Shown here: positions 36,791 through 38,970 of the stretch, in pieces
Numbering within the stretch: the first letter of the stretch is position 1
Layout of the letters: every line of letters starts with the position of its first letter
Assembly (NCBI GenBank): GCA_016790475.1
Contig: JAEUOX010000167.1
Span: forward strand, 1-51,401
DNA length: 51,401 nt
Source of the DNA: Rhodoferax sp.
GTDB taxonomy: Bacteria; Pseudomonadota; Gammaproteobacteria; Burkholderiales; Burkholderiaceae_C
Direction of reading: 5' to 3'
The notes under the pieces: generated by a model
Seen by the model: only the letters and a program-made list of their open reading frames with translations
The model's database searches: none
What the model was told of the DNA's origin: nothing
Made by a program: the position numbers and the translations under genes

Positions 36791-37624
36791 TCATGCGGCC
36801 TCGCCCCGCGGACGCTTGTAGCGCGCGTAGCCCCACAGGTACTGGCCCGGACACTCGCGCACCAGGCGCTCCATCTCCTGGTTGACCTGGCGTACGGCAG
36901 CGTCGAGGTCGGCCGCCAGCGGCTGCTGCAGTTCGCGGAAGTGCAGGCGATACCCTCTTCCCCAGCGCAGCCGCTCGCCCCACAGCAGCAGCACCGTGGC
37001 ACCGGTCTGCTGGACCAGCCGCGCCGACAGCGTCATCGTGTAGGCATCCTTGCCGAAGAAGGGCGCCCACTGGCCCATGCCGTCCGGCGGCACCTGGTCG
37101 GGCAGCAGGCCGACGGCCTGCCCGCTGCGCAAGGCCCGGATCATCTGGCGTACACCGGCCAGCGAGGTCGGCGCCGTCTGCAGACCAGGGCGGTTGCGGG
37201 CCTGGGCCATCAGGTCGGCCAGCCAGGGCTGGCGGGCCGGCCGGTACAGCACGGTCAGCGGGCCGAATCGGGCCGCATAACGGTGCGCCAGCCCCTGGGC
37301 GGTGATCTCGAAGCAGCCCAGGTGCGGCGTCAGGAAGACCACGCCGCGGCCGGCCTCGTAGGCCCGGTCGACGCAGGCCTCATTGACCCATTCGTAGCGT
37401 GGCGGCGCGCCCAGCCAGAGCCGCGGGAGTTCGGCCACCATCTGGCCGGCGCTGGCCACCGCCTGACGCACCGCGGTGAAGCCGTAGCCGGCGATCCGTG
37501 CGTTGGCCAGGAAGCGCTGGCGGTAACGGGCCGACGCCAGGAAGGCCACCCAGCCCAGCACGGCCCCCAGCAGGTGCAGCAGACCCAGGGGCCAGCCGGA
37601 GAACAGTCGAAAAAGCGTGGCCAT
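36791..37624 (-). CDS. LpxL/HtrB-family lipid A acyltransferase (HX4E)
   Basis: A 277-residue acyltransferase, the first of a tandem pair. An N-terminal hydrophobic segment (WPLGLLHLLGAVLGWVAFLA) precedes the catalytic H-x4-E motif TPHLGCFEITAQ. LLPDQVPPDGMGQWAPFFG matches the family's conserved loop and YLWGYARYKRPRG its end. The start at 37624 begins MATLFRLFSGW; earlier in-frame Met codons run into the metK promoter. The pair is divergent from metK. The two paralogues differ in the acid of the catalytic dyad. Confidence 0.9.
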   Translation of the reverse strand: MATLFRLFSGWPLGLLHLLGAVLGWVAFLASARYRQRFLANARIAGYGFTAVRQAVASAGQMVAELPRLWLGAPPRYEWVNEACVDRAYEAGRGVVFLTPHLGCFEITAQGLAHRYAARFGPLTVLYRPARQPWLADLMAQARNRPGLQTAPTSLAGVRQMIRALRSGQAVGLLPDQVPPDGMGQWAPFFGKDAYTMTLSARLVQQTGATVLLLWGERLRWGRGYRLHFRELQQPLAADLDAAVRQVNQEMERLVRECPGQYLWGYARYKRPRGEAA

Positions 37625-37632
37625 CGGTAGGC

Positions 37633-37638
37633 TAGAAT
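37633..37638 (+). promoter_or_regulatory. Candidate metK -10 box
   Basis: TAGAAT in the context GCTAGAATGC, a common housekeeping -10 in Burkholderiales. The expected transcription start is near 37645, giving a leader of about 147 bases for metK. A good -35 is not visible. Confidence 0.45.
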
Positions 37639-37644
37639 GCGCGC

Positions 37645-37801
37645 GTCGCTGAGTTACGGAACTACTTGCAGGGCGACACACAAGCGCCGGTGCCCGACAC
37701 CGCGATTGTGCCTTGTGAATCTGCTAAAGCGTTCGCCATGGCCCGGTGCCCGGCAACGCGACCCTTGTGTTGTTGATGGAGCATGCACCCTATGGCGAAC
37801 G
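37645..37801 (+). promoter_or_regulatory. Structured metK leader, candidate start-masking regulatory RNA
   Basis: Three features stand out. (1) A perfect 10-base inverted repeat, cgttcgccat (37730-37739) with atggcgaacg (37792-37801), pairs the leader with the metK start codon and codons 2-4; ggtgc (37745-37749) and gcacc (37785-37789) extend the helix. (2) A 19-base direct repeat with two differences (37687-37705 and 37743-37761). (3) cacaag (37679-37684) can pair with either of two cttgtg copies (37712-37717 or 37764-37769). This looks like a switch that hides the ribosome site GGAG (37778-37781) and ATG. I do not recognise it as a SAM-I to SAM-VI or SAH riboswitch. Confidence 0.55.
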
Positions 37802-38970
37802 ATTTCCTCTTTACCTCCGAATCCGTCTCTGAAGGCCACCCCGACAAGGTGTCCGACCAGATCTCGGACGCGATCCTCGACGCGATCTTCAAGCAGGACC
37901 CGAAGTCCCGTGTGGCCGCGGAGACCCTGTGCAACACCGGCCTGGTGGTGCTGGCCGGCGAGATCACCACCAACGCGCACGTCGACTACATCCAGGTCGC
38001 ACGCGACACGATCAAGCGCATCGGCTACGACAACACCGAGTACGGCATCGACTACAAGGGCTGCGCAGTGCTGGTCGCCTACGACAAGCAGAGCAACGAC
38101 ATCGCCCAGGGTGTGGACCACGCCAGCGACGACCACCTGAACACCGGTGCCGGCGACCAGGGCCTCATGTTCGGCTACGCCTGCAACGAGACCCCCGAGC
38201 TGATGCCGGCGCCGATCTACTACGCGCACCGGCTGGTCGAGCGCCAGTCGCAGCTGCGCAAGGACGGCCGCCTGCCCTTCCTGCGGCCGGACGCCAAGAG
38301 CCAGGTCACGATGCGTTATGTCGACGGCAAGCCGCACAGCATCGACACCGTCGTGCTGTCGAGCCAGCATGCCCCGGAGATGAGCGACGGCGCGAAGATG
38401 AAGCCGGCCTTCATCGAGGCGGTCATCGAGGAGATCATCAAGCCGGTGCTGCCGAAGGAATGGCTCAAGGACACCAAGTACCTCGTCAACCCGACCGGGC
38501 GCTTCGTGATCGGCGGCCCGCAGGGTGACTGCGGCCTGACCGGCCGCAAGATCATCGTCGACACCTACGGCGGCGCCTGCCCGCACGGCGGTGGCGCCTT
38601 CAGCGGCAAGGATCCGACGAAGGTCGATCGCTCCGCCGCCTACGCCGCACGTTATGTGGCCAAGAACATCGTGGCCGCTGGCCTGGCCCGGCAGTGCCAG
38701 ATCCAGGTGGCCTACGCGATCGGCGTGGCCCGGCCGATGAACGTGACGATCTACACCGAAGGCACCGGCGTGCTGCCCGACGACAAGATCGCCGAGCTGG
38801 TGAACGCCCATTTCGACCTGCGGCCCAAGGGCATCATCCAGATGCTCGACCTGCTGCGCCCGATCTACGAGAAGACGGCCGCCTACGGCCACTTCGGCCG
38901 CGAGGAGCCGGAGTTCTCCTGGGAGCGCACCGACAAGGCCCAGGCACTGCGGGCCGCCGCCGGGCTCTGA
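37792..38970 (+). CDS. metK: S-adenosylmethionine synthetase
   Basis: A 392-residue enzyme making SAM from methionine and ATP. The N-terminal [24 protein letters not shown] includes active-site His16; further hallmarks are [47 protein letters not shown] and [23 protein letters not shown]. The ATG at 37792 is preferred to one nine bases earlier, as GGAG at 37778-37781 is the right distance away and relatives begin MANDF. Its start codon is inside a long inverted repeat with the leader. Confidence 0.96.

Follow-up and report, generated by a model that had tools for sequence, protein, structure and literature searches.

A divergent SAM-II-like element upstream of metK in Burkholderiales

The SAM-II riboswitch (RF00521) is an H-type pseudoknot of helices P1 and P2, with a third strand in loop L1 and a distal helix, P2a. 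Thirteen of its pocket bases have been described as completely conserved, U10 among them as an invariant base (PMC3764141). U11 and U21 are assigned to the sulfonium of the ligand, U44 to the adenine and A47 to the aminoacyl group (PMC3764141, PMC6061858), and a homopurine pair, A-A or G-G, has been reported in the loop between P1 and P2 (PMC2258182). The pocket of SAM-V (RF01826) is described as superimposable on that of SAM-II, and in SAM-V the base that aligns with U10 serves as hydrogen-bond donor to the uracil paired with the SAM adenine (PMC6061858).

Comparing about 200 genomes of proteobacteria, Leyn et al. (2014, PMC4239095) placed SAM_alpha only in Rhizobiales and Rhodobacterales and described a new metXZ element in the beta-proteobacteria; the portion of that text available here draws no link to SAM-II. 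According to the same source, metK of the beta-proteobacteria lacked a known methionine regulator, and attempts to find one had failed. SAM-II elements with terminators had already been mentioned in this group by Barrick and Breaker (2007, PMC2258182). A tandem of SAM-II and SAM-V, with potential control of both transcription and translation, is described from Pelagibacter (PMC11508383).

Here, we describe the metK leader in a stretch of 51,401 nucleotides from Rhodoferax sp. (GenBank assembly GCA_016790475.1, contig JAEUOX010000167.1, forward strand), which is referred to below as the window. The original prediction took this leader for a cis-regulatory RNA of Burkholderiales, and this is borne out by its conservation before metK and by the covariation of several aptamer pairs. 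The layout was also thought to belong to no familiar class, and here the prediction was mistaken, since the architecture is of a known type, the H-type pseudoknot of SAM-II and SAM-V. As judged from sequence comparison, the metK element is a real, conserved and so far unlisted divergent relative of SAM-II. Searches of a library of openly licensed papers found no description of it.

The metK leader and its architecture

The metK gene, encoding methionine adenosyltransferase (NCBIfam TIGR01034, 585 bits), occupies positions 37792..38970 on the + strand, which also carries all the promoter and leader features described below. The start is likelier at 37792 (MANDF) than in a longer reading frame from 37783; most relatives' MetK begins at MAND or an equivalent, with no counterpart of the longer frame. 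A Shine-Dalgarno sequence, GGAG, lies at 37778..37781, and similar ones are found in relatives. Further upstream, a -10-like hexamer, TAGAAT (37633..37638), begins 12 nt before P1. Of the 117 leaders used (out of 121 metK leaders), 94 have a hexamer within the 16 nt preceding P1 that matches TATAAT at five or six of its six positions, with a peak at -12/-13, against 5/380 control windows. The aptamer therefore probably forms the extreme 5' end of the transcript, and the metK mRNA of the window is predicted to start at P1. A divergent, putatively lipid A acyltransferase-like gene lies at 36791-37624. Provided that its start is the ATG at 37624, it begins 8 nt away from the hexamer, and the divergent promoter region would be very tight.

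By its predicted pairing, the leader is a compact H-type pseudoknot of SAM-II type with P1, P2 and P2a. P1 is formed by GUCGCU (37645..37650) and GGCGAC (37672..37677). Between these strands lie the L1 third strand, or pocket strand, GAGUUA (37651..37656), corresponding to SAM-II nucleotides 8-13 (G8 A9 G10 U11 U12 A13), the 5' strand of P2a, GAAC (37659..37662), and the 5' strand of the P2 pseudoknot, UUGCAG (37666..37671; U20 U21 G22 C23 and two more). The roles assigned to the L1 bases are those of the SAM-II and SAM-V literature (PMC3764141, PMC6061858). The 3' strand of P2, together with the rest of the pocket, is CUGCUAAA (37721..37728; G42 C43 U44 A45 A46 A47), and P2a is completed by GUUC (37731..37734), which lies within the switching arm. 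All three helices covary in relatives, P2a with a change from GAAC/GUUC to GAC/GUC.

In relatives, the parts follow one another as P1, GAGUUA, a few bases resembling GAAC, ACUUGC, the 3' strand of P1, a variable loop and CUGCUAAAGCG. The variable loop, L3, is short in 42 of the 80 relatives examined and elsewhere reaches about 120 nt with inserts, as in the window, whose predicted insert (37679..37710, from folding) is a hairpin, CACAA/UUGUG with an inner CGGUG/CACCG, that is missing from the 42 short-loop leaders. Two kinds of insert were seen. The first, ATTGTGCC together with a hairpin, occurs in 20 of 37 long loops (loci L002-L081), the window among them; the second, recognized by eye in several of the remaining long loops, has the pattern CCGGGC...GCTC-ACAAA.

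The original prediction built much of its layout on repeats in this region. A 19-base direct repeat was placed at 37687..37705 and 37743..37761, where it does occur, although the copies are identical at 17/19 positions (89%) and not exact. Copy 1 is part of the variable L3 hairpin, while copy 2 overlaps, and mostly consists of, the conserved competitor GGCAACGC discussed below. Read by eye, relatives' leaders do not contain the direct repeat, and a new layout built on it was rejected. Similarly, CACAAG (37679-37684) can be found together with two copies of CTTGTG (37712-37717 and 37764-37769), but a nearer ATTGTG (37705-37710) had gone unmentioned. The CACAA/UUGUG pairing is conserved in part of the clade and was discarded as support, since it does not co-vary: own partners scored -4.75 versus -4.62 for permuted ones, with 1342/5000 permutations as good.

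Conservation and kinship with SAM-II

A search of public genomes gave 594 matches to metK, and conservation was assessed upstream of the 80 best of these, which are therefore close kin. Both GCUAAAGCG and GCTAAAGCG (window 37723-37731) are present in 80/80 of these loci, and G(A/G)GTTA followed by (C/A)TTGC in all 79 that retain the 5' half; L063, in which the contig begins inside the element, was dropped, and L042 begins at GAGTTA, so that P1 is cut. Pseudoknot covariation was measured in the 42 short-L3 leaders, 38 of them distinct. P1, P2 and P2a together have 98.4% of their cells paired, compared with 33-45% for slid partners, and the covariation score of 0.201 (0.127 in shuffled alignments) was reached in 0/500 shuffles. 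Changes on both sides were found in five pairs, distributed over P1, P2 and P2a (shuffles: mean 2.9, 33/500 reaching 5). The number of further pair types, on the other hand, was no better than in shuffled versions of these 42 leaders (385/500).

Over all 80 leaders, P2 appears as GCAG/CUGC (46), GCGG/CCGC (19), GCGG/CUGC (9), GCGA/UCGC (5) and GCGA/CCGC (1), and P2a as GAAC, GAGC or GGAC with GUUC (70), AGAC/GUCG (7) and AAGC/GUUC (3). The outermost P2a pair is lost in the last two groups, 10/80 leaders, a point against the riboswitch reading given below. Traced on a metK tree, the P2 base changes 12 times, and so does its partner. The A-U/G-C link in P2 gave three independent pairs on well-supported branches, of which 2.6 went the same way and 0 the opposite way (p 0.25); the tree-based tests of this link and of the codon link below are underpowered. 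Alignment of relatives' upstream regions, suggested by the original prediction as a check, thus yielded covarying P1, P2 and P2a and, further downstream, a mask arm co-evolving with the ribosome-binding site (RBS).

The same prediction had proposed a scan with the Rfam SAM and SAH families. The full Rfam collection found nothing in the window at cut-off, with two matches up to E 10, both at E > 8, and RF00521 did not match the window leader. Nor was there any Rfam match at cut-off in 20 of the best 80 metK loci. Below its gathering cut-off of 36 bits, at permissive E-values, RF00521 landed exactly on the element in one relative, L065 (19.6 bits, E 0.018), and in 6/16 further loci (20.0-24.6 bits, E 0.24-4.2). 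RF01826 gave no match up to E 10 in the window leader and 17 of the 80 loci, and the other Rfam SAM and SAH families, including SAM-II with long loops, likewise gave none up to E 10.

A model, R1, was made from the 42 short-loop leaders, with the window excluded. R1 finds the window element at 40 bits (E 3.6e-10) as the sole match up to E 0.1 in its own genome. It also finds canonical GAUUUG SAM-II copies elsewhere in Burkholderiales; when 19 selected loci were scanned, four of these copies exceeded the cut-off set by Rfam for SAM-II.

The kinship extends to the pocket. Twelve of the 13 SAM-II pocket bases are kept in the window, namely U11 U12 U20 U21 G22 C23 G42 C43 U44 A45 A46 A47, and the same twelve are kept in all 79 complete loci of the 80 and in the 42 aligned leaders, in which unpaired and pocket bases are conserved beyond what pairing needs. 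(In the order-wide set of 138 leaders described below, the pocket bases belong to the search motif and therefore prove nothing.) No change is seen in the bases responsible for sensing the sulfonium and the amino-acid end. Nucleotides 13 and 18 are also linked as in SAM-II: they are A/A in 114 and G/G in 4 of the 118 metK leaders that could be parsed (3 of 121 could not), and 52 homopurine and 6 mixed in 58 other R1 hits (59 of 61 were typed, one lacking TTGC). These would be the same two positions as the published homopurine pair (PMC2258182).

The remaining pocket base, U10, is replaced by G in the window and in 109/118 parsed metK leaders (GAGUUA 106, GUGUUA 2, GGGUUA 1), while 9/118 have U. 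The element is not filed under RF00521 because of this base and because its scores in relatives, 19.6-24.6 bits, lie below 36. A change at an otherwise invariant base might mark a class that senses a compound other than SAM, and there is precedent in spermidine-sensing variants of SAM-I, which include one that belongs to a metK gene (PMC10853860). We consider such a change of ligand decidedly unlikely in the metK element, as U11, U21, U44 and A47 are all retained, U10 still occurs in the nine leaders, and the L119 copy, which precedes an O-succinylhomoserine sulfhydrylase gene, has G10 too. Moreover, by our own alignment of the numbering between the two classes, G10 could stand in for U10 as hydrogen-bond donor to U44. 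The presumptive ligand is SAM, by analogy with SAM-II and from gene context: the element precedes the SAM synthetase gene, and the same aptamer type the sulfhydrylase gene of L119.

Occurrence before metK and at other loci

In an even sample of the order, 139/140 genomes had metK, and 138 leaders could be read (G006 begins at the gene). A motif search found the element in 41 of these 138, with the pocket strands GAGTTA (30), GATTTA (4), GATTTG (4), GTGTTA (2) and GGTTTA (1). Divergent copies can escape this search, and some of the 41 parses are uncertain, namely those of L215, L156 and L221, the last with GATTTG. By the same search, 97/138 leaders have no such element, which therefore is not a general control of metK. 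At E 0.1, R1 has matches in 313/399 genomes of the order, a count to which canonical copies in front of other genes contribute. In a class-wide sample, the strict GAGTTA pattern was found in 4/369 genomes, three from the window's order and one among the 365 others.

Copies at other loci come in several arrangements. SAM-II-type copies precede genes for enzymes of the Cys/Met-metabolism type in L119, L121, L123, L125 and L127; that of L119 is an O-succinylhomoserine sulfhydrylase by NCBIfam, and the other four genes were judged by eye. The GAUUUG copies followed by a T run at L121, L123, L125 and L127 are probably the metXZ element of Leyn et al., as is, probably, the SAM-II-type copy of L119. 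The metXZ and metK elements share a pseudoknot before met genes in the same bacterial group; the former, however, is described as transcriptional, with a consensus of six conserved regions and a terminator, and is named for metX and metZ (PMC4239095). Terminators before the other genes were read by eye. The 'TTTTT' flag used here also fired on 8 metK leaders and is no terminator test.

Six loci (L112-L117) carry tandem aptamers, in which a SAM-II-type copy (GAUUUG; GAGUUG in L114) is followed by a hairpin and T run and then, about 90-150 nt further on, by a second copy of the variant type, degenerate in L116. They recall the SAM-II/SAM-V tandem of Pelagibacter as tandem SAM aptamers (PMC11508383) but differ from it in having a SAM-II-type copy with a T run and then a variant copy, before genes other than metK. 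What follows these tandems, and a single copy in L131, is a small protein, about 100 aa long, with MYDC as its first residues; Pfam gave no family for the two MYDC proteins tested, nor for the first genes of L093 and L124. A MATE-like transporter follows in L112-L114, L116 and L131, of which that of L114 alone was tested (PF01554). Tandem SAM-II-type copies occur in L122, before a 347-aa protein with a divergent second metK beginning about 1.4 kb downstream, and in L126, whose genome has a second, 58% identical metK nearby. In L129, a weak second R1 match (271-324, 13.1 bits, E 0.079) lies behind a canonical copy and before a 222-aa protein.

The switching arm and the start of metK

The predicted switch is built from one arm, GCGUUCGCC after CUAAA, with three possible partners. 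The arm, A (GCGUUCGCCAU, 37729..37739), can contribute to P2a, pair with a competitor, B (GGCAACGC, 37752..37759), in a hairpin, P4, or pair with the start codon and first codons of metK (37792..37801), which form the 3' strand of the start-masking helix. The original prediction of a two-state switch over the RBS and ATG thus survives as regards competing pairings and a co-evolving mask arm; the alternatives it invoked, the direct repeat and the cacaag/cttgtg pairings, do not. The 10-base perfect inverted repeat that it reported between 37730-37739 and 37792-37801 is present and extends to 14 nt at 93%, as is the GGTGC/GCACC extension (37745-37749 and 37785-37789).

A perfect inverted repeat of at least 10 also arose in 8/1000 dinucleotide-preserving shuffles of 37645-37810 (166 nt), so that the repeat is suggestive alone and no proof. 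The folding of the same leader has a z of -2.43, with 3/200 shuffles as good. Platform energies were calculated for 120 of the 121 leaders (one was omitted for its start distance). The anti-RBS arm pairs with its own RBS at -19.8 kcal/mol on average, compared with -15.7 (sd 0.28) for permuted partners (0/5000, n=120, kinship ignored). The difference persists in the 52 leaders without GUUCGCC (-16.6 vs -12.8, 0/5000 permutations, kinship ignored), where the arm differs and the complement moves along with it; in the Undibacterium type, for instance (L014 and its kin), CCUGCGA precedes the start. From these comparisons, the start-masking helix is seen to co-evolve with the ribosome site.

The competitor behaves similarly. 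The arm pairs with the downstream region holding B at -15.4 versus -13.9 (0/5000 permutations) and, in the 52 leaders without GUUCGCC, at -14.5 versus -12.5 (0/5000), kinship being ignored in both. GGC(A/G)(A/G)CG competitors are found in 66 leaders, and their flanks can self-close (-5.7 vs -4.7, 0/5000, kinship again ignored).

The codons of metK add a further association. Where Ala-Asn codons 2-3 face the arm GUUCGCC, Ala2 is GCG in 53/57 cases, compared with 29% elsewhere in the same genes and 4/17 with other arms. On the tree, the codon-arm link is not significant (six independent pairs, 3.5 the same way, 1.1 opposite, median p 0.375). This lack of significance, the protein constraint on the MAND codons and the shuffled repeats could all be taken to mean that the helix is a chance inverted repeat under codon constraint. 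That explanation is hardly credible in view of the pseudoknot covariation, the arm-RBS co-evolution and the R1 match to the window. Could the mask then act by itself, without a metabolite, as in a thermosensor or protein autoregulation? It is stable alone and co-evolves with the RBS. However, plain masking would not account for the covariation of P2 and P2a, or for unpaired and pocket bases whose conservation exceeds what pairing demands and which agree with SAM-II at each base, and we regard it as very unlikely.

We therefore return to an aptamer-controlled switch, whose direction was considered from folding energies. In these calculations, an ensemble whose RBS must stay unpaired is set against the unconstrained one, so that they do not test one named helix. 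In GUUC-type leaders, the RBS-closed and RBS-open ensembles lie at -29.8 and -15.5 kcal/mol when free and at -21.7 and -11.5 with P2a held, so that at equilibrium the RBS stays closed on average with or without P2a. Holding P2a nevertheless makes RBS opening cheaper by >1 kcal/mol in 66/77 GUUC-type leaders (ddG +4.1 on average and +9.0 in the window, vs -0.6 in 43 GUC-type leaders). On average, the RBS is unpaired with a probability of 0.43 in the free state and of 0.45 when P2a is held, i.e., no closer masking was seen; with P2a held, equilibrium accessibility is lower in 14/120 leaders, higher in 39/120 and the same in 67/120. In the nascent leader, before the RBS has been made, arm A pairs downstream in 104/120 leaders, but in 45/120 with P2a held.

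Equilibrium energies alone thus point to an ON switch in the window's clade, in which the ligand would pull GUUC off the start mask and turn metK translation on. Arm bases 37731-37734 are common to P2a and the mask, and P2a cheapens RBS opening by the 4.1 and 9.0 kcal/mol given above, as such a switch would predict. We nonetheless consider this sign unlikely: the RBS-closed ensemble is far more stable even with P2a held, the GUC-type leaders lack the bias, and the co-evolving competitor region would be left without a clear role. In addition, the expected feedback is repression of metK by SAM, and the OFF direction is the one described for both SAM-II and SAM-V (PMC9373788, PMC6061858). Also unlikely, if slightly less so, is that the G10 form makes up a riboswitch class of its own, derived from SAM-II and differing in ligand preference or sign, by which Burkholderiales set metK translation.

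In our judgement, the metK leader is probably a riboswitch that controls translation through a divergent member of the SAM-II/SAM-V aptamer superfamily and acts as a SAM feedback OFF switch. The OFF direction is retained on account of the gene logic, the family precedent and the competitor hairpin. It needs a kinetic argument, since RBS opening is cheaper with P2a in GUUC-type leaders, and a kinetic OFF switch is preferred because the RBS-closed ensemble wins on average at equilibrium with or without P2a. At low SAM, P4 would form between arm A and B during RNA synthesis and keep the arm off the start; with P4 formed first, ribosomes would gain time, and metK would be translated. At high SAM, the aptamer would hold P2a, and P4 could not form. 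The freed rest of the arm, together with neighbouring anti-Shine-Dalgarno bases, would then mask the ribosome site.

This design would set the metK element apart from its closest relatives. Unlike SAM-II, it is found before metK in Burkholderiales, with a hairpin insert in L3 in the window, and its predicted platform is translational, the P2a strand leading into an anti-RBS arm with a competitor hairpin. Translational control through a P2a next to the ribosome site would be shared with SAM-V, but in the metK element the Shine-Dalgarno sequence lies outside P2a, which includes a portion of a distinct anti-RBS arm.

The element offers a likely answer to how metK, which encodes the essential SAM synthetase, is regulated in a good part of Burkholderiales. 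It would fill, for part of this order, the regulator gap described for the beta-proteobacteria (PMC4239095) and would probably tie the metXZ element of that study to SAM-II. The Rfam model of SAM-II misses a branch of the family. This branch provides a compact natural experiment, in which pocket nucleotide 10 is swapped between U and G while the other pocket bases are unchanged, and the sign of a switching arm with three partners becomes directly testable.
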